In this document: positions 4,201 through 57,085 of the stretch, piece after piece
Position numbering within the stretch: the stretch's first letter is position 1
Layout: each line of letters opens with the position of its first letter
NCBI GenBank assembly: GCA_037951105.1
Contig: JBAMJV010009330.1
Coordinates: forward strand, 1-64,000
Length of the DNA: 64,000 bases
Direction: 5' to 3'
Source: Echinarachnius parma
Taxonomy: Eukaryota > Echinodermata > Echinoidea > Clypeasteroida > Echinarachniidae
The notes under the pieces: model-generated
Seen by the model: only the letters and a program-made list of their open reading frames with translations
What the model was told of the DNA's origin: nothing
Databases searched by the model: none
Program-made: the position numbers and the translations under genes

Positions 4201-6085
4201 GAAAACTTCAAGGTTTGTATATCGCTGTTTAATTCTCTAGTATAGCGTAGCTCGAATACCCTACCACTATAGATTTGCTAAACCAAGGGTGACATACAGT
4301 TATACAGGGTGGCCCCAAACAAACGGAACGGGGCACTTCCCAAAATATACTACCAACATGTTTATATGATAGGGTGTCTTTTCCAATGAAAAACGATACC
4401 AAGAACAGTAATTTTGGTCGTGTAGTTTTTGTTTTAGGACGCTGTGAGTGAGACCATGTCAGGTGCTAATTTTTGTCAATTTGTACCTAGTCAATGCTAG
4501 TTAAATTGCACTCCCTGCCCGTAATACCATTGACCGACCATGCCCATTATCTCGGTACACGGCTGAGTGCACACTAACAATGGCGCGCCTTGTTAAACGC
4601 TATGAAAGTGCGATTTATCAAGCACTGGCTCAGTATAAATTAACAAAAAAGAGAACCCTAAAACAAAAACTACTCGACCAAATTGAGTGTTCTTGCCTGC
4701 CCTCTAGATGTTAATGAAACCCTAACTGAATTCAATCAACGCCAATTGTCTAGAAGAGAGAGAGGGCCCGGGGGGGGGGGGCATGTGCTCTCTGTATAAT
4801 TATACAGGGTGGCCCCAAAAAAACGGAACGGGGCACTTCCCAAAATATAGTAACAAATGTATTGTGTCTATCGGATAGGGTGTCTTTTCAAATGAACAAC
4901 GGTACCAAGAACTTCTTGGTACCTCTTCTAATAAGAGCGCGGCGGAATTGATTTCCTCGATAGGCGTAATTATATAGGAGCTTCTTGTGAACTCGTATAA
5001 CCTCTACCGTGCGTATACAAAAAAAAAACGTTACACTTTTGAAAAATTTGTCACAATTACATTTCAAAATGTATAGAAGATGTTTTCATGTTGATAGATG
5101 CCCAATAGTCTCTTCTATCAAGTGCCACTAACTAAAACGAATGTTTGTTCACGCTTGGGTGAGCACTGACCGTTTTTGTCCAGAGTGTGAAAAATGACCT
5201 GCACCAATCTGAATAAGTACTCCCATTCAAAAAAATTGCTCTTTTGCATAAATTTAGGATTATGTTATGATAGTCTAGGAATTTTCTGGCATAAAACAAT
5301 GAAATCATTAAAATTATGGCAAAGAGCAATTTGTTTGAATGGGAGTACTTATTCGGACTGCTGGTTTAATTTTCCCTCTTCTTTCAATTTGGCGCAAGTC
5401 ATTCTTCACACTCTGGACAAAAACAGTCAGTGTTTGCCCAAGCGTGAACGAAAATTTGTTTTGTTAGTGGCACTTGATAGATGAGACTATTGGGCATCTA
5501 TCGACATGAAAAAATCTTCTAAATATGTTGAAATGTAATTTTGACAGATTTTTCAAAAGTGTAACGTTTTTTTTTAAATGCACTGTATAAAGCGATGAAG
5601 CAGTTCTCACATGTCGCTAACAAAAATTCATTGAAAGATGACGATTAATATCGATTATGTTTGATTCATTTTTCATGTGTCAAGGTATCGTCAACAATGG
5701 TCACTACGCGACCGGGAGCTGGGAGATCAGAATGGGGTCACAAAACAGCGGGCAAATGCTGGGCGGCGGCATCCTCACCCTCCCAGAGGATGATCGCACG
5801 TGGGACTACATCAACCTGGTTGCCGCGCAGAACACGTGGAATCACGTGGTCATGACGTATGACGGCACTGCGCTTCGCTATTACCAGAACGGCGCGCAAC
5901 GTCCGCTGAGTTCGGAGATCCACAACAGCCCGATCCTGACGCGCAACACACCGGTGACCATCGGGCAGTCGGGACCGGGGACAAGCAACCAATTCTTTTA
6001 CGGTTTGATCGACGAGGTGAAGATCTATTCGCGCGCCCTCTCGGGCGTCGAAGTACAGAATATGGCCAACCATCCTTGTCTGTGA
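1112..6085 (+). CDS. secreted LamG-like jellyroll (concanavalin A-like) domain protein
   Basis: Four coding exons are joined at 1112..1218, 2345..2472, 4119..4212 and 5685..6085. Every junction is GT-AG and phase-consistent. The product has about 242 residues plus a start exon. It has a hydrophobic signal segment ending near Leu-Ala-Ser-Cys, a short Cys-rich linker (SCSSCPHDC), then one jellyroll domain. Hallmarks are YFPFEGDLIDSSGN, ASFDGES, FSVSVWFK, WNHVVMTYDGTALRYYQNG and GLIDEVKIYSRALS, the strand signatures of the Laminin_G_3 family of concanavalin A-like domains. These usually bind carbohydrate or protein outside the cell; the ligand cannot be read here. There is no membrane segment after the signal, so secretion is inferred. 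The introns are crowded with transposons. The start exon is uncertain; the other exons are well supported. Confidence 0.82.
1230..1445 (+). repeat. GTTT-rich simple sequence
   Basis: Imperfect GTTT/TGTT runs in intron 1 of the LamG-like gene. No other feature is seen. Confidence 0.7.
1672..1890 (+). mobile_element. half copy of the 58 kb long-inverted-repeat element
   Basis: It matches one arm of the element at 58000..58661: TTTCACTCTGGAAAGT, then a GGGGCTTTAGCAAGATGAA stretch, then the GATGTATACACTAATACA segment. Only one arm is recognised, so it is a truncated copy. Confidence 0.6.
2028..2341 (+). repeat. two ~157 bp tandem units with poly(G), abutting an exon acceptor
   Basis: Units at 2028..2186 and 2187..2341 share AAAGTAAAAC, a GTTTTTC segment, a poly(G) run of about 20, GCATTGCACCCCTTACCCC and a final TATCCCCTCTT. 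The second unit ends in the functional acceptor CCAG; the first ends in ATAAAG. The end of intron 1 has therefore been duplicated. Confidence 0.8.
2345..2472 (+). CDS. LamG-like gene, exon encoding first jellyroll strands
   Basis: The acceptor is CCTCTTCCAG and the donor is AG|GTTTGT. The exon encodes YFPFEGDLIDSSGNNRHG and then the FDG motif, the typical N-terminal block of this domain. It ends in phase 0. The two repeats just upstream duplicate the intron end. Confidence 0.85.
2735..2945 (+). repeat. degenerate TTTTGCCCGAAT minisatellite ending in poly(G)
   Basis: About eight variants of a 22-30 bp unit built on TTTTGCCCGAATNTGACATG run into a poly(G) tract from about 2914. The unit spacing varies. 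It lies in intron 2 of the LamG-like gene. Confidence 0.7.
3277..3795. mobile_element. TTAA-flanked MITE, family B, copy 1
   Basis: Bounded by TTAA at both ends. It shares the family-B interior (GAAAAACTGANTGTCAAATT, TTCAGAAATAGCTGAAATAT, GAGAGCGCCCTCTTGTGTTT) and the right end GACCAAAACTGTATGATCCC. The left terminus is diverged. It lies in intron 2 of the LamG-like gene and has no coding capacity. Confidence 0.75.
4119..4212 (+). CDS. LamG-like gene, third coding exon
   Basis: The acceptor is CCAATCAG and the donor is CAAG|GTTTGT. Thirty-one codons read VTVESFVDFAWG then FSVSVWFKRTG, the expected central strands. It ends in phase 1 and joins GT at 5685 to give Gly. Confidence 0.85.
4301..4925. 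mobile_element. mariner-like non-autonomous element(s)
   Basis: Two direct copies of TATACAGGGTGGCCCC followed by ACGGAACGGGGCACTTCCC lie at 4301 and about 4801. Internal inverted segments occur at about 4395-4440 and 4655-4695 (CGACCAAA/TTTGGTCG and the AGTTTTTGTTTTAGG block). TA before CAGGG suits a Tc1/mariner-type end. The short open frame from 4580 (about 44 codons) shows no transposase motif. A partial third end is near 12733. Confidence 0.55.
5010..5590. mobile_element. ~570 bp fold-back element, arms ~200 bp or more
   Basis: The left arm begins near AACGTTACACTTTTGAAAAA and the right arm ends TTTTTCAAAAGTGTAACGTT. Matching internal blocks include GATAGATGCCCAATAGTCTC against GAGACTATTGGGCATCTATC, and GAATAAGTACTCCCATTCAA against its complement near 5340. 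It lies in intron 3 of the LamG-like gene and has no coding sequence. Confidence 0.85.
5685..6085 (+). CDS. LamG-like gene, terminal coding exon
   Basis: The acceptor is CATGTGTCAAG and the stop is TGA at 6083-6085. It encodes 132 residues with the WNHVVMTYDG and LIDEVKIYSRALS signatures and ends in HPCL. It is much richer in G+C than its flanks. An ATG further upstream in the same open frame (5657) is intronic and is not the start. Confidence 0.88.
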
Positions 6086-6680
6086 TCCATGAGCGGAGAT
6101 CACGGAATATAATTCCGTGACGGAGATGTGGCAGCAACCAAATTAATATTTTTTATTTCGGGGGCTGCTTTTCGGGGGCTACTTTTCCAACTTTTGGGGG
6201 CTACTTTTATCATCTCGGGGGCTACAAATTTCCGGGCTTTTTTCGAATTTCAGGGGCTACTATTAAGCTCTAATGCTGTAAGTGATTATCTTATAAGCAT
6301 TTGATCACGATCCAAGCAGAAAATCCAACAACAATCCCCCCCCCCCCCCCCCAAAAAAAGAAAAAAATTCGCCCCCCGCCCCAGTGTATTTTTTTCGCTG
6401 ACTGATGTGGTAATAGCCAGGGCGGTTCACATAGGGTGGGGCCGGGAAGGGTGGGGGGGGGGGGGTATCCCTATCAGGAAAGAAGCCTGTGTCAAACGTA
6501 CAATTAATGTATATAAAATGGTCCCTTTTCTTAACCACGACACTGAGGATATGAAAGCCTTTGTAGAAAATATACCACAATCATTCAAGGTAGTATTTTT
6601 ATTTACAAAATAGCCCATCTTCATCTGCTATCACTCTGGCTACAGTTCATTGCAGGATGTGATTTTGAGCGACAATTTAG
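6086..6680 (+). other. 3' flank of LamG-like gene with GGGGGCTACTTTT repeats
   Basis: After the stop there are about five spaced copies of GGGGGCTACTTTT or close variants (6160-6255), then poly(C) near 6338 and poly(G) near 6455. No conventional AATAAA is seen close to the stop codon. Confidence 0.5.
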
Positions 6681-7070
6681 TTAAAGGGACTGATAACATT
6701 GTCAAAACCTTCGTAATCCAGTTGGAATTCTAGCGGTTCCCTCATGCTCATACCTTTTTTTATTCGTATTAACAATAAATGCATGGGACAGGTTTCGGTT
6801 TTTCAAATTTCCATTTCGTTCAAAAGATATTTACGATTGAAGTGTTCGGATATGAAATTAACTACTGGACCTGTTCAGCCGTGTGCAATGTAAGTGCAAT
6901 GAGTAAGTGAATATCACTTTGCATTTTCGCTCATTTCTCGGCCAAATAACATCCAATTAACTTGAAATTTTCACACATTACTTTTTGGACATATCAGATC
7001 ACATCAATACACATTTTATTAATCACGCATCACGTTTTGCACTTATCATCAAAGTTACTAGATCCCTATA
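6681..7070. mobile_element. TTAA MITE family A, copy 1
   Basis: Starts TTAAAGGGACTGATAACATT and ends GTTACTAGATCCCT. The interior has the family-A blocks GGACAGGTTTCGGTTTTTCA, AAAAGATATTTACGATTGAA and TTTTTGGACATATCAGATCA. Confidence 0.8.
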
Positions 7071-8492: not shown

Positions 8493-8889
8493 TTAAAGGG
8501 ACTTAGTAACATTGTCCAAATCCTCAAAATCCAATCGGAATTCTAGCGGTTCCCTCATACCTTGCTGTATTCGTATTACTATATTAGCAATAAAATCATG
8601 GGATAGGTTTCGGTTTTTCAAATTTCCCTTTCGTTAAAAAGATATTTACGATGGAAGTTTTCATATGTTAAACAATCCAACGGATCGTCAAAACCGTGTA
8701 CAAAGTGAGTGCAATGAGTTAGTGAATATCACTTTGCATTTTTGCTCATTACTCGGCCATATAACTTCCATTTGACTTGACATTTTCACACAACACCTAG
8801 TGGACATATCAGATAACAACAATATACATTGTATCAACCTCAGACTCGTCACTTTTTGCACATGTAAAGAAAGTTACTAGATCCTTTAA
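8493..8889. mobile_element. TTAA MITE family A, copy 2
   Basis: TTAAAGGGACTTAGTAACAT at the left, GTTACTAGATCCTTTAA at the right, with the shared interior. Non-coding. Confidence 0.85.
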
Positions 8890-10641: not shown

Positions 10642-11035
10642 TTAAAAGGGACTTAGTAACATTGTCCAAATCCTCAAAATATTTTTTTCATTCTAGCGGT
10701 TCCCTCATACCTTGATGTTGTATTCGTATTAACAATAAAAATCATGGGACAGGTTTCGGTTTTTTCAAATTTCCCTTTCGTTACAAAGATATGTACGATC
10801 GAAGTATTCAGATAAGAAAAACTCCGGGCGAGTTTTTCGTTCTGTGTACAAAGTGAGTGCAGTAGTTATTGAATATCACTTTGAATTTTCGCTCATTACT
10901 TGGCCATGCAATGTCCATTTGACTTGAAATTTTCACACAATACCCTGTGGACATATGAGATAACAATAATTATACATTGCATCAACCATTCATCACTTTT
11001 TGCACATGTCAACACAAGTTACTAGATCCCTTTAA
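10642..11035. mobile_element. TTAA MITE family A, copy 4 (absent from the duplicate)
   Basis: Flanked by TTAA on both sides. The other duplicate reads CACATAGATAACACATAA at this point with no insertion. The element therefore arrived after duplication, or left the other copy with a two-base change. Confidence 0.88.
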
Positions 11036-14783: not shown

Positions 14784-17700
14784 CTAAGAGAAATCAGGAC
14801 AAAAAAACAGATATGGTATACGTATAATCCTTATAATTACTATTGGGCTTTTACAACTTTGAACCGTTTAGTTATACTCTGTTATCCAGACGGAATATAA
14901 TGGAATGGGGAAGTTTAATCCACTGTGTGTGATATACTGAGATGAGCCGAATGGTAAAGTAGAGGAGTTCATATGCAAACACCGATATAACCGATTTGTT
15001 TTCCTTCTCATTTTTGGTACAAGGCGGATTTTAAGATATTATTAAATCCATTACCTTATTTCTTCTAGAATTGGAAAAAGTGTATTTAACGTGTTTGTTT
15101 TCTTCATTATAAACCCTTCATGGAGACTCTGTTATCCGTAGTGAGTGACGAACTGGCACGTATTTAATCATCTTTTCTGATGTTCATATCAATGTAGTAA
15201 GTGTTTTGTTTTCATAAAACAAATCTACCTTTATATTACTCTTCGTGTATCTATTAAACATGAGATCAACAATATGATAAAGTTCCCATAAAACAAACAC
15301 GATTTAATTTGTGGGTATTCCCGCTTAAGTTTCAATATCTATTTTAATCTAATTATGTTTTCTTTCAGTTCGATTATCAGAACTAAGCTGACTTATGCGT
15401 TTCACAAAATAAATAACAGAAACCAAAACTTGTACATTACTAAGCAATAGTTGGGGAAATAGTTAACGGTAAAAATGATAAATAACTGGTTATTTCAGAT
15501 AGGGAAATGATGTACATGGAATGATGGAATCAAAGTACAAACATATTTTCAAAACGCTATTATCTACAACACTTAAAGGACAATGAAACTATGGCTTTCG
15601 GCTACTATCATCATTTAGAGGGTGAACAGACATTTAATTTGATACATGACTTTGCAATTTTGGCCTGCTGGATCCCATGAAATCCTTCTGTGAACATACC
15701 CAAATTTTACTAATTGTTACAGCGGCAAAAGATGATGGGAGCGGCCATCATGTTCGTGTAACTACCCGACATGCTTTGCAAATTCTGACGTATGTGCGGA
15801 TTGCCGAACAAAAAGAAAAAAAAAGTTTTTCACTGATTTACAGACTCATCAAAGAGTCTACAAGTATTCAAACAATGGTTTCAATTGGTGTTATTGAATT
15901 GAGTTCAGTGCAGGAATGCATCATTGTTCGATCACAGTGGTGTACGTCCGCACAGACCTAATAACAAGTGGCGACCTCCAGCGTTCGCGTGAATAGTGGT
16001 GTACCCGATAGTGTTTTCACATTTTTCTTCCAAAGCAGAAATCTGAGTCGGGGTAATGTTATGCGAAATAAACAAGCATATTACGATGTATAAAGTAGGA
16101 TAAACTCTTTTCTAGACTTGCATTGGCCTTTAAAGATGGATATCTCCTGAAAGAATGGGGAATCGATATTAAAATAAACACATAAAACTAACCTCAGCGT
16201 TGCTAATGCAGCTGCTTCCTTCGCCTCGGTGCATCGCTGAAGAAGATGGATGAAGCTCTCTGCTCCAAACGTGATGTAGAGAAAGCTGAGGAACCCGAGA
16301 GAGGGCGTCCTGGTGAGTACATCTGAGAAACTGACGGCGACATTATGGTCGACCTGGCCCGCATACATTTGTTGCTTGGTCTTGGCTGGCGGTGTTGCTG
16401 AGATCATCAGGTTCTGGAGTCGACGCATACTTGGCAAGATAGATGTGGCACAATTGATGACGTCGTTGGGTCTAGGAGTGTGAACGAGATGAAGTTCTTC
16501 CAGTTGGCTTAGGAAGTCCACCTTTTCGAGCAGTCTTCCAAGTCCTTTGTCGGTGACTCCATGAAGAGACATCTTAAGACACCTCAGATTATTGCAGTTA
16601 TGGAGATTGTCAAGAATGCTGATGATAGCCGTGTCGTCCGACCCTTCGTTTCTTCGAATATCTAAGGTCGTCAGTCCTGGGAATTTTCCGAGCAGATCTC
16701 CAAGCTGTTCGATGGACTCTGAATCCATGTCGGTCTTGTCGAGGATAAGTATTTCTAGGTTGTCCATAGGAGGATACTTGCTGAGAGCGTCAAGGAAGGG
16801 TTCCCCAATATAATTTCCGGATAACTTCAGATACCTGAGATTCGACTGGGCGCTGAGAGCTGGTACAAGTTTTGCAAGGCAGTCTTCTTTAATGTCAGTC
16901 ATGCTAAGCGTAAGTTTGTGTAAGCTTGCTGATGCCGGGTTGGACAGTATTTCGAACAAACTTTCCCAGTCCTTCTCGTGTTCCGCTTTCACTCCGTTCA
17001 GTGTCAATGTTTCGATGGAACAATGTCTCAAACCTTCTATGACGGGACAAAAGTTACATTCACTCATCTGGATCTTGCTGAGCTCCTCCCAGAGAGGTAG
17101 TACCGCAAGGAAAGTGTCGTCTGTTCGCTGTAGAAGGTATTTTGGTATCTGCTTGCCTGCTTCGACGCCTTTCCGTAGTTTCTCTCTTCGCTGGTCTTCT
17201 GTGAGAGGAATTTCATTAGCCCTCTTCTTCTTCTTTCTCCGCTTGGTAACCATTGAGTTGGTGGCTTCCTCTTTCACACCATGAAACGTGTTGAGGAATT
17301 CTCGGAATTCAGAACTAGAGTTCAGGTAGAGTCTAACAAGTTCCAAGGATTTGACCGGAAGTCCTTCTCCGCATTGGCTGTACTCGAGAAAATACCCCAG
17401 CGACTTCGTGACGTAGCTTGAGATCCCCACGAGGCGAAGTTGAGTGCATCCGCAAAGAATTGGTTTCAAGACATCATTAAGGGAACCCTTACATTGACTT
17501 TCGTAGTTAAGTTGGAGGCAGAATTCGATCTGACGCTGAATTTGCTGGCATTTTGAGTAGTGCAACTTTCCCTTCATGAACATCGCGACACTTTCAGTTT
17601 CCACTAGAAGATGTTCTACGACACGACCGGTGATAGCGCGGGCAGCAGAGATGCTGGCGCCACAAGCAAACATGAGGACATTACCAAGATCCATGGCACG

Positions 17701-20700
17701 TTGAAGGGATGTCAGACCTTGCACATGTGCTAAAAACTGATCCCTTTCTTCTGGTGTTCCATTAGACAGATGCCCAAGGTGCATCCCGCCAAGCTTCTCC
17801 TGGAATATCTTCAAGACAAACGTGATGTTGCGTACGTCGAAATCTTCGCCCTCGTTTTGGTTGATGTCAAGATCTTCGTATCGGGTGGGTCTGTACTCAG
17901 CATCTCCATCTCGAAGAAGAATACCTGCCTTGCACGCTTGGCTGATGATATGCTGGGGCTCTACATCGCAGTCCAGGAAATCTGTATTGCAGAAGATGAG
18001 TTCCTCTTCTTGTGACCGTGTAAAACCCATCAATGCGACCTTCCCCAGGGCTCGTATCACGTCATCGCTTGCGTACACTCTTGATGGACCACGGTTTTCT
18101 TGTTCTACGCTGTCACTTTCATCTGGCAATACTTCCGAAATAGATGTGGTAGTTTCAAGGATAGGTGTCTCCTCCTCTGGTTGTCTCTGCTCTCTTGCCC
18201 TGGGGTGATATTTCAGGAGACATGCGACGAGTTTGTCGAACAAGGTGCTAATGGTGTTCATATCTTTGAAATCCTTACCATCTGTGAATTTGGTCAGCTG
18301 ACAGAAGGCGCAGCACATGAGAGGAAGGGAGGCGAGTTCGGTTTTCAGATTATTTTCTGCCAGGTAGTTCAAGAGCTTTTTTGCAAGATCCGGTGAGGTT
18401 TGAAAGATCTTCTCGACGTACTTGTCTATGTCTGATGACGAAAATCCCGTGATTTCAAGGTGACGATATTCATCGGTGATGTCATCGCCAAGTTCCATGA
18501 AATCTACCACTCTTCCTGGGCGAGTTGTGACTAATAGCCGGACGTCTGGAAGGTACTCATTTCGCATCATCTTCACGATATTTCCAGAGTCTCCTTGCAG
18601 AAGTCCCTTCCCTTTGAACTCATCGTAGCCGTCTAGCAGTACAGCAACATCCTTCTGGTTCTTCTGAATGAACTCCTCGATAAACTGCGGTGTGAAACCC
18701 TTCTTTGGGAAGAAGTGTTCGACGATGGCCGCCCCAAGATTGCTTATATGGTCGAGCTTCTTCAGTGGGAGAAGAAACACCGCTTTTGCGCCCTTTAACG
18801 GACCTCCTTTTCCATTAGCCCAATCATTGGAAAGCTTCATGAGAAACGTGGTCTTACCACTCCCAGTTCTCCCCCTGGCAACTACTCGATTGGAAGACAT
18901 CATCATCCATTCCCCTTCTCCATCATCATCCTCCATCCCATCCATCTGGCAGTTGCCACCATTCATCTCTGGTGCTCCGCACCTGCTAGCTGTTTTGATG
19001 TCGCTGAAGAGCTGTTCCGGTCGCTTTAGAGGATAGCGTATGGGTAAGTACGAGCTGTCGATGTCAACAAGCAGTTCCAGGTTTGTATATACACTCTGGA
19101 GGTTTACAGTCACTATCCTCCCGCTCTTCCCGGCCCACGGGACCATTGGTACTTTATTTCGCTTTCTGTAGAAGGACCTCAGCTCCTTAATCATCTGTTG
19201 CGCAACCATGGTAACGTCAACTACTCTCGGTGTTACTCCTTGCGATGTACACGACATCGTAGGATTCGCGCTCTGCAATTTCTCTGATTGGATTGTATGA
19301 AAGGTAGAAGGTGGCAAACTATAATTAAATGTTATACTTATTATGCAATCTTTAATAGGCGTGTACTAAACAACTATATATCCGCATAAATGTGAGTGAA
19401 ATAAATACTGTTGATCATTTATTAAATGATATAAATATTAGATCGGAATTAAAGTTGAAAGTTTTCCATAAGAGAATTAAAGGGATAGTTGAGTATTGGT
19501 CAAACTTAACTTTAGTAACCAAAACCTGCACGATTACGATACAAACTAATAGTTATAACTTCACCATGCTCGAAAAGTATACACAATTACAAACGACAAA
19601 GTAAAACCCCTGTTATCATTCAAAAAGAGCCGTTACAACTCGAAGTGTCAAATTAACTCGGCGCGAAGCACTAGCGTTGTAGGTCCTAATACGGGACTGT
19701 ATAGTGCAGTGTGCGGTAATACGGGACTGTAGTGCAGTCACTGTGTGCGGTAATACTATACAGTAGTACGTGTATATTATGTATCGCAACCATAGAAGTA
19801 TGACTCCAACACTGCCGTTGACGCAACTCGCAAGCCCTATTCGCATTCGTTCGCCTTTCGTTCACAGTCGCGCTAACACACGGAGAGACTGGTCCATGAG
19901 GCGCATATATCACTGATTTTTTGCGGAATGGAAGGAAAAATCATAATCTTAATCCACCCGGTAGTTGGATCACATATTGGAGAGTAAATTGCTGGTAAGT
20001 ACCGTATCATATGTATAGTTTTAAGCACAATTAGCGTGCACACAAATATTTGGTTTCAGTCTTTTATTAGGAGAACATAGAACGCTAGTGCCTCGCACTA
20101 GCGGTTCTAAAAAGTGATACCCGGGCGTCAACCACTTTTATATGATATTTTGAAAGCAAATTTCACAACAATTAGAGCATTTGAATGGAAATTATTATTA
20201 TTTCCCATGTTTTTTTCGATGATCTTTCATATGGAATTTAAATCAACCAAATCCGTTACAATCGATGTTGGGGGGGCACTTTGGAAATTACCAAAACTCA
20301 ACTTGGCCTTTAAAGGCTCTATCTGCGCCCACTTGTTACGGATCTGTAAACATTCCACCTAGAATTGATATGCAATGCATTAGTTCATGAAAAAAGTATA
20401 TTAAAGAGTGTAATGTGCGTTTCGTCAAAATCGACCTTCTTACCATGCGGAGTGCATCGTCCAGCCTCTTGACTGCACCAACCGCACCTGTTATCTATTC
20501 CTACTTGTTGAGGGTCTGTAAACAACTCTACCTAGATCTGATGCTCTGAAATACAACGCATTTCCTTATATAATACAACAAATCAAAATCCTTACCGTAT
20601 GTGCTCTTGAAGAGAGGAATGTGCTTGTCGACAAGGTCGACCCTCTTAGCCTTTCTGAGCGCTTCATCCAGCCTCTGGACTGCATCCAATACACCTGTAG

Positions 20701-38099: not shown

Positions 38100-39299
38100 G
38101 CCCATAGGCGCCGGAAGTGGGGGGCAGGGGGGCGGCCGCCCCCCCCCCCCCCCCCAATCCAAAAAGTGGGGGGGCAAAACACAATTTTGCCCCCCAAAAA
38201 GCCCCCCCCCCCCTCCCCCAAAAATAAAAAAGAGTGGGAAAGACACAATCAAATGTATGAGCTAACGTTCAATTTTCGCTGCGCGCTTCGCGCGCGAACA
38301 TATTATCTCAGTTTGTTGTAAACACCTGATGAGAGTATAGACATTTTATTAATTTTTTGTTTAACTCTGATTCTAAATTTCCTTCACAGGAATGGCATGT
38401 AGTGCATCAAATTGCACCATTTCAAGTATATAAATGCAAAATCTTCCCCATGGGAGGGGGATATCTCCTCCCAAACCCTCCCCCTCTGGCTCTGCCCAAG
38501 CCCTCGGTCGCTTCGCTCCCTCGGGATTCATTATTGGCTGTAGGCCATGTTGTTGGATCATACATGCGCCATATGGTTTATGTTGGAACTGTGTATGACA
38601 CTAAATACAATATTTATGTGTGAGTTTGGGTGCGTCAATTATTTGTTTTCTTCGTGAAAAATATATAAAATCATAACACACTCCCCCAGATACAGTTAAT
38701 CTTGAGCCCGAATTTCCTATCTAGGTATGCACCAGATTGCACAATTTCAAGTCCATTAATGCAAAATCTTTCTTACCGTGGGAGGGGGATACCCCCTCCA
38801 AAACCCTCCCCCTCCCTTCCTGCCCCAGCCCTCAGGCGCTTCGCTCCCTCGGGACTCATTATTGGTGGTGTGTTGTTGGATCATACATAATGTTGCATAA
38901 TTATGGTTTATGTTGTTGTGTGTGTGTTTTGGGGGTACATATTTATTAGTGTGTCAATTATTTGTTTTCTACGTGAAAAATATATACAAATCATATCATG
39001 CTTTCCCAAATACAGCCGAATTTTCTATCTAGGTATGCACCAGATTGCACAATTTCAAGTCCAAAAATGCAAAAAAGCTCCCTACCGTGGGAGGGTGTCC
39101 CCCCTCCCCACCCCCCCCCCCCCCCCCCCGCTCAGTCGCTTCGCTCCCTCGCAATGTCTCACTCTCACATCTGGCTCAAAGTTGGCAACCCAGAGTGTGG
39201 TTGGGCATGAGCCCCTACACACACAAATTGTGAGCCCCCTTAGGGTTATGCCCCCCCCCCCCCCCCCCAATCCAAAACTGCTTCCGGCGCGCCTGCTTA
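38100..39299. mobile_element. ~1.2 kb C/G-rich element with GGCGCCGGAAG ends
   Basis: TGCTTAAGCC occurs at both borders (about 38093 and 39293) and could be a 10 bp target duplication. The inner edges are inverted: ATAGGCGCCGGAAGTGGGG against CTGCTTCCGGCGCGCC. Long poly(C) runs lie inside each end. No transposase. Not assigned to a superfamily. Confidence 0.6.
38370..39190 (+). repeat. ~310 bp tandem repeat, 2.7 units
   Basis: Units at about 38385, 38725 and 39030 share GCACCAGATTGCACAATTTC (or a variant), TGCAAAATCTTNC, GGGAGGGGGATA, CCTCCCC and CGCTTCGCTCCCTCGGGA. The third unit is truncated in poly(C). Confidence 0.85.
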
Positions 39300-39957: not shown

Positions 39958-42040
39958 ATTGTCATGAGGGAGTACGGGTTTTTCGCCTGACAAGAAAAAA
40001 AAAATGGTCCTCACTAGTTTAGATGGCCTATAATCATCATTTATAATAGCCCATACATTATCTAATTTACTATTTTATGGTATCATTATATGTTTTGGGG
40101 CGATATTTGTTGTTCATTTTTCGCCTGGAAGTATGATTCTTTTCACGGGGGCACCTAGGGGCACAGCCCCCCCCCCCCCCCCATTGCTACGCCCCTGTTA
40201 GGGAAACCAGTACAATCATTTTAAAAATTGAGTATGTTGTTCACATTTTTTTTTGGGGGGGGGGGGGGGGGGTGGTGAATACGAGCATCACATAAATACG
40301 CAGTGTGAGGTCAGTTTAAGTGGAGTAAATAAGAATTTTAATATACACCAAATACTTTATACAGTACTTTACAAAACATTGTATCACAGTTTCAGGTAAC
40401 AATATTAACGATAATCCTCCATTGTCATCATAATATACAAATAAATGTTGTTACCGAGCCGTCGTTATTATACCATATTTATAATATATGCGTTCCATCA
40501 TCTGATTCGTAATCTAAACCATACAACTATGTATTATCTTGATGTTATATTTATTCAAAATTTTCCGTGAAGTTAAAGGGACTTAGTAAAATTGTCCAAA
40601 TCCACATAATTTACTTGTAACTCTCGTGGTTCTCTCATACCTCATCATATTCATATTAACAATAAAAGCACTGGACAGGTTTCGGTTTTTCAAATTTCCA
40701 TTTCGTTCAAAAGATAGTTATGATTGAAGTGTGTCTGTATGGAGTTGTCGACGGAATACTTTCATCCGTGTACAAAGTAAGTGCAATGATTTAGTGAATA
40801 TCACTTTGCTTTTTTGCTCACATCTCAGCCATAAAACATCCAATTAACGTCAAAATTTCACACATTACTTTGTGGACATATCAAATCACACTAGTACACA
40901 TTTTGATTAATCATTCATCTCCTTTTGCGCTTGTCAACAAATTTACTAGATCCCTTTAATTCATATGATTTACTTCTTAATTTTGTATTCATTATTTCAC
41001 CGTTCAAAATACATGGAAGCCTCATTAATATGTACATAAAACTTATATAAATATGTTGAGTTATACAAATGATAATAAATCGTCAATATGCAGATTCGCT
41101 TTTCATATTTATGTTCTGTTTTCGAAACAGTTTCAAAATGTTCTTAATGTCATAGTTAAATCGATGGTTAAAAAAGGAAAAAAGAATAAACAATTTATTG
41201 TTAACATTTACACCATTGTAAGGGTTGTGACACGAAACTACATTTTGTGGAATACAGTATAAACAAAAACAAAAGTTAAAAGGAAGCTAAAAACAGAATA
41301 AATAAGGTACACATAATACCATATTAAACAACAATATTTAGTCCATACGTGAACAATCGCGAATCAAGATATACAACCTGTTAATGTACAAAATGTCTTT
41401 CTTAAAAATGTATGCTATCGATAGACTGTCACATAGATAACACATAACACAAAACGTACGAAAATAGAAATGCAAATATACACAAATACATTAAATATAT
41501 TATAATTGACATAAACTTACACTTATGATAAGCATTACACCACGTACATGTGTACAATGAATACAATGTGATAGCTAAAAACGTTTTCCAAACGTTGTCA
41601 TCGTACGACAGTTTTCTTAAAATGAATTGGGATAAATTTTGTCTATTTTATTGAAGAAATATATATATATACAGAGTCATTACACACAGTTGTAAAACCG
41701 TACCGGGTTGCAGAAACCGATTTTAAATCGACATATAATTCTCAATATAGCCTAATCATAGATGCCAAATTTTCAACGTAAATTAATTTAAAGTTGCAAT
41801 CCAATTACTTAACTGATTACAAGTGTTGAGTACAAGTCAGTTACTTGTTATTAAACCGTTTTAATAAACACAAAATTAAAAAAAACTGTTTTGGGTAGTT
41901 GAGTTAGTAGTTTGAACCAGTTTAATTTTGTTTAAATAACACAATGTAGTGTTTGAATGTGTCAATCAGTGCATGTTTAAAATGTAATCACAGTTTAGAT
42001 ATGAGGTAGAAAAGTATTAAAGCGTTGCTTGTGTTTTATG
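39957..42040. repeat. segmental duplication, copy 2 (pairs with 9256..11833)
   Basis: Direct orientation, about 30.7 kb from copy 1. It lacks the two insertions seen there. The left boundary falls exactly at the end of the 39306..39957 element. Confidence 0.9.
40573..40959. mobile_element. TTAA MITE family A, copy 6
   Basis: Counterpart of 9885..10181 inside the segmental duplication but about 90 bp longer, so the other copy has an internal deletion. Confidence 0.88.
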
Positions 42041-43746: not shown

Positions 43747-43935
43747 TCATAGGCAGTAGCACGACTTGACGATCATGTCGTTGAACTTCTTCAGGATGAC
43801 GTCATTGTCTTTGTTCTGGTAGAGGATGTTGAGGGGTTCCATCTTCTCCGGGACGCAGCAGGGACTCGGGACCTTCTGGACCCTGAGTGCCTGGATGACG
43901 CTCTGGACGATGGCGTGATTCGATGGTCGCAGATC
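43747..43935 (-). CDS. BMP3/GDF10-like gene, functional terminal exon
   Basis: The acceptor TTGTTCAAACAG precedes GATCTGCGACCATCGAAT, in phase 0 with the upstream exon. Sixty-two codons encode the C-terminal half of the cystine knot and end with Cys-Tyr-Cys-Leu and TGA. It is the only one of nine related copies that keeps the CC and CxC cysteines. Confidence 0.92.
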   Translation of the reverse strand, partial: DLRPSNHAIVQSVIQALRVQKVPSPCCVPEKMEPLNILYQNKDNDVILKKFNDMIVKSCYCL

Positions 43936-46531
43936 CTGTTTGAACAAGAAGGAACGAAGAGAACAAACGTAAGTATATTTAATGTTCAGGTTACGAAAAC
44001 AATTTGAAGACATTGTGTGACACATGTGTCCGGAAGGTTGCAGCGACTCGTCAACCAATTCTGGATTCGGAGTGCCTTCGCGATTGCTTTGGACAATGGC
44101 GTGATTGTATGGTTGCGGTTCCCGTTTGGAAAAAGAAACAGAATGACGGTTTAATCTTCCGTTTACAATAAACAATGTCAGAAATACAAATATATGACCT
44201 TCTGCACTCTGAGTGCCTGGATGACGCTCTGGATAATGTCGTGATTCGATGGTCGCAGATCCTGTTTGAACAAGAAAGAAGGGAGATTAACAGAAGAAAG
44301 TCTTTCATTTTCAGGTTACGACAAACAATTTGAAGACATTTTGTGACGCATGTGTCCGGAAGTTTGCAGCCACACATCAGCCAGCTCTGGATTCGGAGTG
44401 TCTTGATGATGCGTTAGACAATGGCGTGATTCGATGGTCGCAGGTCCTGTTTGAACAAGAAAGAACGGAGATTAACAGACATAAGTATTTAATTTTCAGG
44501 TTACGAAAATAATTTGAAGACATTTTGTGACGCGTGTGTCCGGAAGGTTGCAGCGACGCGTCAACCAATTCTTGACTCGGCATGCCTTGATCATGCTCTG
44601 GACAATGGCGTGATTCGATGGTCGCAGGTCCTGTTTGAACAAAAAAGAACGGAGATTAACATACGTAAGTATTTCATTTTCAGGTTACGACAAACAATTT
44701 GAAGACACTTTGTGAGGCGTGTGTCCGGAAGGTTGCAGCGACTCGTCAACCAATTCTGCACTCTGAGATCCTTGCTGACGCTCTTGAGAATGGCGTGATT
44801 CGATGGTCGCAGATCCTGTTTGAAAAAGAAAGAACGAAGAGAACAGACGTAAGTAAAAAATTCATAAGTCAGAAATACACATATATGGTATACTTTCTTC
44901 CTGACGAAGTTCGGACTTGGGGGCCTTCTGCACACTCTGAGGGCCTTGATGACGTTTTGTACAAAGACGTGTTTCGACGGTCACAGATCCTGGTTGGAAA
45001 AAGAAACGGAGTGACGGCATCAATCTTCAGGTTACGAGAAACAATGTAAGACATAATTATTGCTCGTATAGGTTGCAGGGACATGTCAACAATTTATGCC
45101 TTGATGACGCTCTGGACAACGGCGTGATTTGATGTCCTGTTTGGAATACGAACAACAAAAACGAATGATTAATCTGCCAATTGTATTAAATGTCAGAGAT
45201 ACAAGTATAGGGCACAATTTCTTCCAGACGAATTTCGGACTCGGGACCTTCTGCACCCTCGAGTGCCTTGATGACGCTGTGGACAATGGCGTGATTCGAT
45301 GGTCGGAGATCCTGTTTGGATAAGGAACAACCCCACAATAAAGACGTATTAATCTACCGATCGCAATAAACACAATTAGGACACCTTTTTTCTGGTGCGC
45401 AGAACGGACAAGGTGCTTAATTGTGCTAAGCACGCCTAATGTCAACTGTCTTCTGGAGCGTAGTAAAATAAATTATATTTAATCGTCGAATATTTGTTGC
45501 TAGTGAGCTATACTTCCTGATCATGTTGGCCTATCGATTCATTATGAATATCGTTTAATTGTACAGTCCTACAAATTATATTGTACTCACCTCGTCAATT
45601 GGGAATGAGCACTGGCCTGTGCAATAGTACGATTCGAACTCTGTTGGCGCTATGATGTACTCTCCCCACTTGATCGCTTCGAAGTCGACTCTCATCGCAT
45701 GTCGGGCGCAGGGGTTCGCCTCGAGGTCATCCGACTTCTCGATGTCGAGATGTTTGGGGCGTGGCTTGTTCAGCTTCTTTTTCCGAGATCGTGATCTGTC
45801 GTCATCCACCGCGTCCAGCATCACGTTCTTGTTGTTCGCTTTCCTTCGCTGGTTCCGCGCCCGCCTCCTGCTCGACTTGATCCGCCGCATGTTCTGCTCC
45901 GCGAAAAATGTGAAGGCTGTGTGCGTGGAAGCGGGGTGTGGGACCCCGACGGGATGTAGTGGGTATTCGTTACTGCGCCCGGTTGTGTCGTTGGTCTCGT
46001 TAAACATTGCTTCCCTGCGTTGACGTGATGGGGCGTCGGCATGCTCGGGGACCAGCGAATCGGCTGCATTCTTGACGACGCTTTCCGCAAGCCACTCCCA
46101 ATTCGATTGGGCGTGGCCTTTCTTCGTCGCTGCGTCATCCGTGTAGACGAACGCGTATGGCTTGACTAGCTTCTCCTGCGAGGTGTCGTGGTGCGGTGAA
46201 GTGTGACTGACCCCGCCCTGCCCGATGTACATCGCTATGGTAACGCGGGAAGGATCGTCCAATAGCACGTGGCTGAGGATTGACGTCACGTTCGTCACCA
46301 ACCAACCGTTCTGCGGGATTTTCAGGTTCTGGATGCCGATTGGTATGCAGCCAGCGGAGGCGGCGTGGTAGAACACGATGGGGATTTCGTCGTACTCGTA
46401 ACCCGCGATATCCAGGAAGTTCTTGGCGTAGAAGTGCAGCTCGGCGTACTTAAGATCTTCCGGGTCACGGAGGTCGTTCATGGATTGCATGGTGAACACG
46501 TAGGCATCGCCGAGACCAAGACAAGCTTCCT
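43747..46531 (-). CDS. BMP3/GDF10-like TGF-beta family ligand (last two coding exons)
   Basis: The exons at 46531..45591 and 43935..43747 give about 375 residues lacking the N-terminus. The first carries most of the prodomain (including PYAFVYTDDAATKK), a basic spacer with possible proprotein-convertase sites (RRRAR, RNQRRK, RSRSRKKK), and the start of the cystine-knot domain (CARHAMRVDFEAIKWGEYII, YYCTGQCSFPIDE). The second begins DLRPSNHAIVQSVIQALRVQ and ends CCVPEKMEPLNILYQ and SCYCL. Seven mature cysteines are present. PSNHAxxQS, the prodomain phrase and the two-exon layout match BMP3/GDF10 rather than BMP2/4. Secreted ligands of this branch act in TGF-beta/activin/BMP signalling, often against BMPs. 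The exon with the signal peptide is not found. Confidence 0.88.
43936..45320 (-). repeat. intronic ~185 bp tandem array of decayed final-exon copies
   Basis: Eight copies of the acceptor plus the first ~65 bp of the final exon start at about 44121, 44261, 44446, 44630, 44815, 44989, 45136 and 45311; the spacing is mostly 174-186 bp. Most keep TTCAAACAG|GA(T/C)CT and frames reading DLRPSNHA. All lose the later cysteines. Defects seen are an early stop at 44446 (after NHAIV), a stop as third codon at 44989, a frameshift at 45311, a deletion at 45136 and a lost acceptor at 44121. Units also share CGGAAGGTTGCAGCGACTCG and AGGTTACGA blocks. A working exon was partly amplified inside its own intron. 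Confidence 0.93.
44591..44815 (-). pseudogene. final-exon copy with longest open frame (74 codons)
   Basis: Starts DLRPSNHAILKSVSKDLRVQ after an intact acceptor and stays open into the next unit before stopping at 44591. If spliced, the ligand would lose the conserved CC and CxC cysteines. Coding use is doubtful. Confidence 0.6.
45591..46531 (-). CDS. BMP3/GDF10-like gene, prodomain and mature N-terminal exon
   Basis: The acceptor TTTCTTTGCAG precedes two bases and then 313 codons starting EACLGLGDAYVFTMQS. The donor GACGAG|GTGAGT is at 45590. The exon is GC-rich against an AT-rich background. The frame is open upstream, so no start codon is expected here. Confidence 0.9.
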
Positions 46532-47678
46532 CTGCAAAGAAAGGAATAGATAAACGTCAATGAGAAACAGTCCATAATGATTAACATCATATTTCATGCA
46601 ATACTTCAAAATAGCACTATGTATTTTCCTGTAAGTGCATGTACACGTCTTGTATACTGTATGGTCGGGTATGTTGTTTTCTTTTTAACCCACCTCCAAT
46701 TAAAACTTCTGTGGAATATATAAGAGGCTTAAACTACCAAGTACCAAGTACCAAGTATTGACACAAAGGACTGCATTATTTGCTAATTTATTGCAGTATG
46801 TCCTTTAATTAAATCTTTATAGGACAACATGTAGTTAATGAGCATCAAATTAAACCAATACAACATGTGCATGTCCTGCGCCGGCATGTAGTGACTTGGG
46901 TTATATAATTAAATGTTGCTGATGATTGACAAAGAATAATTCTTCTTTCCCAGTCATGTTCTGCGCACTTGACCAACACATATATAAACACACAACATTA
47001 CTGATTCGATCAATATTTAGGGCATCAATTATTGTTTATTTATGTGTTTTTGGTTCAAAACAACTATTATGTACAATGATTTTAAACAAACAAAATACAA
47101 CTATATGTCTCTGTATTATTAAAATGTAGTACGTTATAGGCACAAAATATTTCCTTAGAAGAACTCGAGGGCCCTTATCATTATGCATAGTACATGCCCA
47201 TTTATTAAAATGTGAATTTAATTTTGTATTCTTCTCTGCTATCTTATATGCATGCCAATAGTTTGCTTTATTTTCACCAGAGCATCAATACTTGTGTTAT
47301 TGTATGTTCGCTATTGATTGCATCGTCGACAGACAAACAAATCTGGCGCTCTATGATGCGAATGGGAATAAGGGTCAGACGCCATCTTTTGACAGAAAAC
47401 GAACATGTTGTAGCAATGGTCTCGGACTTTTGAGCATGTTGGTGGTTGAATGTGATGGCGTACCGTGGCGATGGATGGACGTTCGATTATGTGACTTACG
47501 AATGAGAGACTTCGCATGGATATTCTAGAACAATAAACATTTATTCGTTTCAAAGGCTTAAAAAAGATAACCTACTTAATAATGCTTACAAACATGAATA
47601 GAAGAAGAAAGGCATATCAATGATGAGAAAGATTTGCATTAACACAAAAATGGTATAGAATGATAAACATGGGCCTGT
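46532..47678. other. 5'-side intron of TGF-beta gene, no exon seen
   Basis: AT-rich. CCAAGTACCAAGTA repeats near 46738. A GC-moderate patch at 47335-47530 has short open frames on both strands but no recognisable motif. Confidence 0.4.
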
Positions 47679-47839: not shown

Positions 47840-49333
47840 GGTAACCGGGTATATTATAGAGTCCATTTGGTCAAGAAGCACGCCATATATTTGGGAGAGA
47901 AATGTACATGTATATCCAAAAATAAAGCAAAACAAAAGTAGGTCTTATTTTGTACGGTGACGATGAAAACTAACGTGACCGACGGACAATGCCTGTACGT
48001 CATCTTCTATTCTATTGTGACGTGAGAAAGACTCCCTCATCAATCATACACAAAGCTGACAATTGAAGAAGGATTGACTCGTAATAAATACAGAATCGGG
48101 GAGTCGACCCCTATATAGCCTGTTTGCAAGACGCATCAAATTATATATATGGTCTAACACAACATACTTGAATTTTATTTGCCTCAAATTGCTTTCTCAG
48201 ATTTTCAATTGATATATCTTAATGTCATTCATTTATGCATTTCCTCATTTCTCTATGTTGTCGGTGGGAAAGTAGCGATTTCGGCTTAATGTTGTTGTTG
48301 TTGTTGTTGTGTGTTTTTTTTTTGGAGGGGGGTGTATCAACGAGTGTATGTCTTTCATTCAGAGGCAGTATACAGGCTCCACAATTGTATTTCATGTCTA
48401 AATCATAATTAACAAATATTATGAAATGAAGTGTTACAAAAGTAAGGTAGTCTACATAATTGGTAATGTTATAATCATCGCTGTATATACCTTGATACTT
48501 GATACTTGAAGAAAATATCTCCTTAAAAGCGCCATTCGGTGCTTTCCTGGAGAGGCAGTGCAGTGCAGTGCAGTGCCAGTGAATTGTGTGAATGTGATGT
48601 TTTATAACATTTGTGACGTTTGTCCCATGTATGACATGAATTGCTTTTCAATTTGTATTTGTCATTTCTACCCTATATTAATTGTAATTATAATGTTGAA
48701 TAATTGTTCCGTATTATGATACTCTATACTCCCTTTATATTGCGGAAATATTACTTATAACCTGAAAGCTAGACTATGCACCACCACCTTGCGTTGGTAT
48801 GCAATAATTACGATCCACCCCTCTGGCCTTGGGATTGGCACCGAGAAGATGAACAACGTGATCTATAATTTGGTAGAAAATAAAGGAAGTTTTCACGATG
48901 GAATGAAAAGAGAGAAAATAGAATTCCTATAGCTTTGCAAAACCATCCATCATCGCTCACCTGTCGAGAATATTTTGATTTTAGTCAATTGCAAACCTTC
49001 TCACACATTACGTTGGTCCCACATACCTATTTTACGGTGTCATAAGTCCCATTTACCGATAGTAAAATTTAATCTGAAAGGACATTATATTTTAACCAAC
49101 AAGTTCAGAATAATAATAATATGTGTGGTTTAATGCTATTATTTTTTTCTCGAACGTTATGTGAAAGTGACCAATAAAAATGACGTGTACCAAAAACGCA
49201 AATGTATTTATTACTTTGTGCGGATGAAAAGATGTTTGTATTTCTACCACATACTGTAACTGGAATATGCTCGCATTTTCTACTTTGGTACGGTAGATAA
49301 TGATTCAACAAACATGTTACTCCTTTATTCACA
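47840..49333. other. non-coding interval
   Basis: A GTT-repeat run at about 48290 and GCAGTGCAGTGCAGTGCAGT at 48556 are the only simple repeats seen. No exon recognised. Confidence 0.4.
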
Positions 49334-49693
49334 TTAAAGGGACTTAGTAACATTGTCAAAATCCTCAAAACTTACTTGAAACATACCTTATCAACAATAA
49401 AAGCACGGGACATGTTTCGGTTGTTCAAATTTCCATTTCGTTCAAAAGATATTTACAATTGAAGTGTTCAGATATGAAATTGTCTACGGGATAATTTCAT
49501 GCCGTGTACAAAATAAGTACAATGAGTTAGTGAATATCACTTTGCACTTTTGCTCGTATTTCAGCCAAAAAACATCCAATTAACGTGAATTTTTCAAACC
49601 TTACTTTTTGGACATATCAGATCACCCCAATACAATTTTATTAATCACTCATCACTTTTCTCACTTGCCAACAAAGTTACTACATCCCTTTAA
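49334..49693. mobile_element. TTAA MITE family A, copy 7
   Basis: TTAAAGGGACTTAGTAACAT at the left, GTTACTACATCCCTTTAA at the right. Confidence 0.88.
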
Positions 49694-50456
49694 CATGTTA
49701 ACGTAAGAAAGAAAACTGGTAACGTTTTACAAACGAATGTCTAAAGCTCTACAAAAAGAAATCTCTCCCTCAGGCCACCATTGCATCCACTCAAGCTCCA
49801 TGATTATGATGGTTGGTCTACTGCATATATTTATATTATAATGATATCGATAATTTGTTGCCACATTTATAAACTATTATTGCATTACTATTCTAATATC
49901 ATTGTTTTCATAGTATGAACAAAATATTTTGTGTATTTTTCTTTTCTTTTATTGTTAATTTTTTTTTTTAATACAATACTATGCCTTGAAAAAAAATGTA
50001 TGCCTCTGGCCACTCTGTTAGCGGAGGCATAACAAATATTATCCTTGATCGGTAAGTACCATCGATGTGAATCATACTTAGGTGTATATTATAATTGTTA
50101 CCCAAATCTGAATGGGAATCCGTCAACATTCCGAGACTTCGTAAATCCAAGAAATAATAAACCGATAATATGTTGATAAGAGCTAAAGAACCTGTTTAAC
50201 ATCTTGTCCATCATTAAATGGTCAGCTTCGATGAATAACGGAGTTTATTTTACAAACACGAGAAAGAAAACACAAACTTTGCTTGGGACGTACGTATAGT
50301 ATATATCTTCTGAGAAGGGCGCCATGCTTTATCTCGTTGAACTTAATATTTGTGAAAGCTTTACTTCGACGTAGGTGGTATAGATTAGATACACATGTTA
50401 CCATGGTAACGAGATACAGGTCCATCTAAGTTCTGCAGTGATGAATGAAAGTGTAT
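49694..50456. other. non-coding interval
   Basis: No supported feature. Confidence 0.4.
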
Positions 50457-50852
50457 TTAAAGGGATCTAGTAACATTGTCCAAATTACAAAACTTAATTA
50501 GAACTCTAGTGAATCGTGCGTACCGTGGTGTATTCCTATTACCAATAGAAGCATGGAACAGGTTTCTTTTTTTTTCGAATTTCACTCTTGTTAAAAATAT
50601 ATTTACGATTGAAGTGTTGATATTTCTTTTATTATCCACTGGAAAGTTATAGCTGTGTACAAAGTCAGTGCAATGAGTTCGTGAATATCATTTTGCATTT
50701 TCGCTCATTACTCGGCCATATATCAAATTAACGTGAAATTTTCACACATTACTCGTTGGACATATCACTATCAGATCACAAGAACACAAGCACATTCTAT
50801 CACCCATCCATCACTGTGTGCACATGTCAAAAAAGTAACTAGATCCCCTTAA
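50457..50852. mobile_element. TTAA MITE family A, copy 8
   Basis: TTAAAGGGATCTAGTAACAT at the left, GTAACTAGATCCCCTTAA at the right. The left terminus pairs especially well with the right. Confidence 0.88.
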
Positions 50853-56684: not shown

Positions 56685-57085
56685 TTAAAGCGATCTAGTA
56701 ACATTACCAACATCCTCAAATCTTACTTGGAACTCTATAGTAGTTCTCTCATAAATTGTTGTTGTAATCGTATTACCAATATAAGCATGGGACAGTGTTG
56801 TGTTTTTCTAATTTTCCTTCCGTTAAAAAGAAATTTACGATTGAAATGTTCAGATTTTTAATTATCCGCTGGAAAGTTATAACTGTGCGCAAAGTCAGTA
56901 CAATGAGTTCGAGAATAGCACTGTGAATTTTCGCCCATTACCCGGTCATATTACTTTCATTTCATGTGAAATCTTCACACATTACTCATGTGACATATCA
57001 TATCACAAACAACCACATTATTTTTTTATCAACCATTCATCAATTTTTGCACATGTCAACAGCGTTAATAGATATCTCCATTTAA
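56685..57085. mobile_element. TTAA MITE family A, copy 9 (diverged)
   Basis: TTAAAGCGATCTAGTAACAT at the left, GCGTTAATAGATATCTCCAT then TTAA at the right. The oldest-looking copy. Confidence 0.8.

Follow-up and report, generated by a model that had tools for sequence, protein, structure and literature searches.

A mirage-like tandem array of intron–exon boundary copies ahead of the terminal exon of a BMP3-like gene

The intron that precedes the final exon of a minus-strand BMP3-like gene holds eight tandem units of 140–186 bp, lying ahead of the real exon, and every one of them spans the intron–exon boundary, joining the 3' end of the intron to 38–95 aligned nt of the final exon (8/8). We consider it very probable that this array is a mirage-like tandem duplication of the boundary, multiplied by unequal exchange, whose copies are decaying mostly as intron. 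The features are collected in Table 1; the window referred to throughout is the whole stretch of DNA that was analysed (64,000 nt).

The mature protein finds its best solved-structure match in BMP3 (2qcq, E 5.9e-34), with a BMP2/BMP6 entry as the runner-up (E 8.6e-30), among the best 60 of 65 matches. This bears out the BMP3/GDF10-like identity proposed in an earlier note on this DNA; GDF10 is absent among the same best 60 of 65 matches, and BMP3 and GDF10 are not told apart by them. BMP3 homologues are reported to have been identified only in deuterostomes, sea urchin and acorn worm among them (PMC3579780), so that this gene probably belongs to a deuterostome. The penultimate exon lies in an open frame (45579–46556), ends ...CSFPIDE in phase 0 and includes cysteines one to three of the seven in the mature domain. 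The donor at 45590 (GAG/GTGAGT, score 11.4 by a rough matrix) and the real acceptor at 43935 (...TTCAAACAG/GATCTG), both read directly in the sequence, are those claimed previously, and the alignment of the spliced protein to BMP3 runs without a gap across the 45590/43935 junction. The authentic final exon stands intact at one end of the array, its frame and TGF_beta domain whole.

Table 1. Features of the BMP3-like locus, and copies of a dispersed repeat. Acceptor scores come from a rough matrix; tails are the phase-0 frames read from each decoy acceptor position.
Feature	Position	Strand	Length (bp)	First exon base	Acceptor score	Phase-0 tail (aa)	Remarks and evidence
Penultimate exon, upstream coding part and start of mature TGF-beta domain	45591..46531	-			12.8		Pfam TGF_beta profile 2-36
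Array-holding intron	43936..45590	-					Both splice sites seen in the sequence; spliced product aligns to BMP3 gap-free
Degraded upstream array edge	45312..45372	-					Weak match to unit tails; BLAST of upstream intron against array, E 0.001 and 0.004
U1, type B	45137..45311	-	175	45311	8.3	41, then stop	Acceptor kept; exonic part 47/51 identical to real exon
U2, type A	44990..45136	-	147	45136	7.0	16	Acceptor kept; 8-nt deletion in exonic part
U3, type B	44816..44989	-	174	44989	11.7	2	Acceptor kept; third codon an in-frame stop
U4, type A	44631..44815	-	185	44815	12.8	74	Top acceptor score of the intron
U5, type A	44447..44630	-	184	44630	11.5	44	Acceptor kept; ATTAAA at 44493
U6, type A	44262..44446	-	185	44446	10.8	10	Acceptor kept; 10 codons, then in-frame stop
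U7, type B	44122..44261	-	140	44261	12.2	27	Acceptor kept; exonic part 48/51 as real exon; ATTAAA at 44155
U8, type A	43936..44121	-	186	44121	2.2	124, open through real exon	AG lost (CGG); 1-nt exonic insertion; ATTAAA at 43983
Real final exon, coding part (DLRPSNHA...CYCL)	43747..43935	-			10.2		Stop TGA 43749-43747; Pfam TGF_beta profile 41-104, BMP3 alignment, frame
AATAAA	43722..43727	-					No other AATAAA between donor and 43300; begins 208 nt beyond real acceptor
Copies of ~390 bp repeat	6678-7066, 8493-8884, 10645-11035, 40573-40959, 49329-49696, 50457-50852, 56685-57073						

BLAST with the real exon recovers all eight units (E 1e-26 to 4e-7), confirming the earlier description of eight repeats of the 3' splice site and the start of the final exon, and Tandem Repeats Finder gives 44200–44855 a score of 953. 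The length of ~185 bp ascribed to the units holds for four of the eight; the others measure 175, 147, 174 and 140 bp. Nor are the acceptor copies near-identical, as had been stated: among the nine copies, the real one included, identity is 66–94% in the first 51 exonic nt and 60–93% in the last 60 intronic nt. Inspected by eye, the aligned unit tails fall into two types, B (U1, U3 and U7) and A (U2, U4, U5, U6 and U8), type B matching the real exon over a longer stretch than type A. Comparison of the array with itself gives two shifts, ~185 and ~325 bp, a pattern consistent with repeated unequal exchange. In a tree of the unit cores, U5 and U6 group together (support 0.73), long branches lead to the inner unit U4 and to U2, U3 and U8, and homogenization of the inner units with divergence at the edges, a sign to be expected of mirages (see below), is not clear-cut; in a tree of the exon parts, U7 joins the real exon (support 0.78).

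Splice sites were scored with rough acceptor and donor matrices, and all scores given here are of that kind. The acceptor AG is present in seven of the eight decoys, U8 alone reading CGG for CAG. Five decoys (U3–U7) equal or exceed the real acceptor in score, each of them falling within the top 0.5% of the 6210 AGs that the two strands of the window contain; the claim that several acceptors look as good as the functional one is upheld for these five and not for the two that score lower or for 44121, which is without AG. A CTTAC motif resembling a branch point occurs 38–39 nt upstream of U4, U5 and the real exon. The intron contains no strong internal donor, its best donor-like site scoring 3.8 as compared with 11.4 for the real one; because the internal donors are weak, the decoys make poor cassette-exon candidates, and that reading of them is unlikely. 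The real acceptor is 208 nt away from AATAAA and the decoys 394–1584 nt, the latter distances being no bar to decoy use. ATTAAA is found upstream of the array at 45559 and 45483 and within it at 44493, 44155 and 43983; each of these last three is followed by T-rich sequence, and they could be candidate signals for short terminal exons.

If the decoys were used, the phase-0 frames of U1–U7 would lose the conserved CC and CxC cysteines, keeping three of the seven. The prediction that any decoy would have this effect therefore applies to seven of the eight frames; U8, the only decoy without AG, adjoins the real exon and its frame reads on into it. The 51-nt exonic part is broken in four of the eight units, by a deletion in U2, in-frame stops in U3 and U6 and an insertion in U8, and the exonic parts differ by 6–34%, in agreement with the earlier suggestion of an exon-derived satellite in decay. 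Variability along the unit was compared in four of the type-A copies (U4, U5, U6 and U8, with U2 left out): 19 of 51 exonic columns are variable as compared with 29 of 132 other columns (p 0.04, the opposite of constraint), and in 6/6 pairs divergence is higher in the exonic part. That the exon part is no better kept than the rest of these four units again supports a decaying satellite. The arrangement of the array matches the mirage class described below.

Against their consensus, six decoys (U2 and U8 being omitted because of their indels) carry 30 changes, distributed 12/6/12 over codon positions (p 0.30), or 27 distributed 11/6/10 when only distinct changes are counted (p 0.46); 10 of the 30 are synonymous, where 26–30% would be expected without selection. 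Measured in this way, no coding selection on these six decoys is seen, and the synonymous count, which the earlier note had proposed as a check, comes out at the neutral level. Nevertheless, the differences of the decoys from the real exon are distributed 16/6/18 (p 0.045), fewest at second positions, although this count takes in the real exon's own changes in several decoys. AG is kept in 7/8 decoys as compared with 6.1 expected from nearby divergence (P(≥7) 0.39). Across all eight decoys, the block from -10 to +51 has the modal base in 6.5–7.4 of 8, as against 5.5–5.75 of 8 in the flanks. Exchange with the real exon, together with the split of the flanks into types A and B, may explain both the better-kept core and the 16/6/18 bias, and both leave room for function through selection on the core; judged from its letters, the array mostly fits decay.

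The closest published parallel that we recognized is the ‘mirage’, a name given to minisatellite-like duplications of intron–exon boundaries in lancelets (PMC3087553). In the globin gene BflGb6, units of 150–160 bp are described that consist of the 3' end of an intron and the 5' part of the next exon, present in six copies in one haplotype and three in the other, with 81–100% identity; many but not all mirage tandem repeats have splice signals, and the authors take their Adh3 and globin data to suggest that regular splicing is undisturbed (PMC3087553). The array described here resembles the BflGb6 mirage in having tandem units of the same make-up, of similar length and in several copies, and in keeping splice signals in many but not all units (AG in 7/8). 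It differs in preceding the terminal exon of a BMP3-like gene, in having eight decoys of two unit types, and in its lower identity, 66–94% in the exon part as compared with 81–100% for whole BflGb6 units. Adh3, troponin C and PGBD5 also have boundary-spanning tandem repeats, described as harmless to splicing (PMC3087553, PMC3902484); those of PGBD5 (60 and 108 bp) are imperfect, as are the units here, while the Adh3 units are of 10–72 bp, and all of these repeats are in other genes. A partial search of the literature, mainly of titles and the openings of abstracts, recognized no report of mirages outside lancelets. The array thus looks like a further case of the mirage kind, a likeness to the lancelet phenomenon in build only; it is set apart by its host gene, its place before a terminal exon, the greater divergence of its copies and, it may be, the species. 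It has been suggested that new introns may arise from boundary repeats of this kind (PMC3087553).

We envisage an initial duplication of a stretch comprising the intron's 3' end and the first part of the final exon, which unequal exchange would then have multiplied and reshuffled, giving rise to types A and B and to the ~185 and ~325 bp shifts. The copies would since have been decaying, mostly as intron. The last copy alone runs on into the full exon, close to AATAAA. Since definition of the terminal exon links the final acceptor with the poly(A) signal, as reported for human cells (PMC3737548), the entire array would probably be excised with the intron and the last acceptor picked.

The main alternative is that the decoys act as terminal exons in their own right, yielding BMP3-like proteins in which cysteines one to three of the seven are all that remain and which would be inert or dominant-negative ligands. 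Clusters of mutually exclusive terminal exons are known, for example in Drosophila pip, where exon copies likewise stand in tandem ahead of the end of the gene (PMC9013439). The acceptors of U3–U7, the open tails of U1, U4, U5 and U7 (41, 74, 44 and 27 aa), the ATTAAA motifs with their T-rich sequence and the scarcity of second-position changes relative to the real exon (16/6/18) are all compatible with such use. However, the tails vary in length and sequence from unit to unit, synonymous changes are as frequent as neutrality would predict, type-A units show no preservation of their exon part, and the authors who described mirages infer regular splicing (PMC3087553, PMC3902484). The decoys are also partial exons: in contrast to pip-type exons (PMC9013439), the array repeats only the first part of the exon, half of its copies (4/8) are broken and AATAAA comes only after the real exon. 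The plausible acceptors that survive, on which a truncated-isoform reading rests, would be about what slow decay leaves behind (7/8 AG as compared with 6.1), and we regard such isoforms as improbable, though use at a low level may occur. It is also improbable that the seven surviving acceptors, which lie in the best-conserved stretch of the units, form a set of regulated, competing 3' splice sites, which would tune the amount of full-length ligand by way of half-domain ligands or slowed removal of the intron, with copy number differing between individuals and acting as dose.

Improbable too, in our estimation, is a role for the array in the unspliced state, in which decoy acceptors would bind splicing factors and delay removal of the intron or cause its retention. 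The precedent is OGT, in which plausible acceptors within an intron belong to decoy exons that promote intron retention, and decoys are reported in other genes as well (PMC12017769); retention of seven acceptors and a core better kept than its flanks across all decoys would fit a role of this type. In OGT, however, the decoy has 5' splice sites of its own that are essential for the effect (PMC12017769), and here no comparably strong donor accompanies the acceptors, those within the intron scoring 3.8 or less as compared with 11.4; moreover, AG is retained no better than decay would predict. An assembly artefact, affecting either the whole array or the number of its copies, would have a precedent in BflGb6 itself, since the mirage of haplotype 1 seemed to have been aberrantly assembled in the genome draft (PMC3087553). 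The units here differ by so many substitutions and indels that collapse or read error is hardly their source, and an artefact is extremely unlikely, while the copy number of the array could differ between haplotypes.

A mirage-like array in this position provides a natural test of splice-site choice, in which a single donor is confronted with seven copies of its acceptor that have survived; five of these match or surpass the real acceptor in score, yet the gene still encodes a complete mature domain. If only the last acceptor is used, the locus would be a clean example of terminal-exon definition prevailing over the strength and order of acceptors. With it, a BMP-family gene, and possibly a species other than a lancelet, joins the few loci with boundary repeats that are named in the papers cited here.

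Several further candidates were considered and rejected. A chance or low-complexity match is ruled out by BLAST and Tandem Repeats Finder, the similarity being far beyond chance. A transposable element carrying the unit finds no counterpart, for BLAST reveals no relative of the array elsewhere in the 64-kb window (best outside match 20 nt, E 0.34). Read-through of U8 as the true start of the exon was dismissed because its AG is lost and BMP3 aligns gap-free at 45590/43935. Matches of array frames to Pfam fell below the curated cut-offs (THH1_TOM1-3_dom, E 0.028; HU-CCDC81_euk_2, E 0.0017) and were set aside. As to pairing of the upstream intron with the units at the RNA level, BLAST matches on the opposite strand were only 8–14 nt long (E at least 2.2). 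The penultimate-exon part had no relative among viral contigs, and neither Rfam (at gathering scores) nor ARAGORN (set to the bacterial code) matched anything in the window.

Elsewhere in the window, an uninterrupted frame of 1094 codons on the minus strand (16084–19365) encodes a NACHT domain (E 2.2e-22) and represents an NLR-like gene; its leucine-rich-repeat matches are below cut-offs. An exon-like frame on the plus strand (5642–6082) encodes a Laminin_G_3 (concanavalin A-like lectin) domain (E 4.5e-20). A dispersed repeat family of ~390 bp has at least seven copies in the 64 kb, pairs of which are ~70–82% alike among the matches listed. The segment 29241–29749 is a near-perfect palindrome, 94% identical to its own reverse complement and possibly a foldback element, and 5020–5575 matches its own reverse complement at 77%. 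At 38403–39151 there are two diverged tandem copies of a repeat (75%, shift 300–325 bp) with GGGAGGGGG- and CGCTTCGCTCCCTCG-like motifs.
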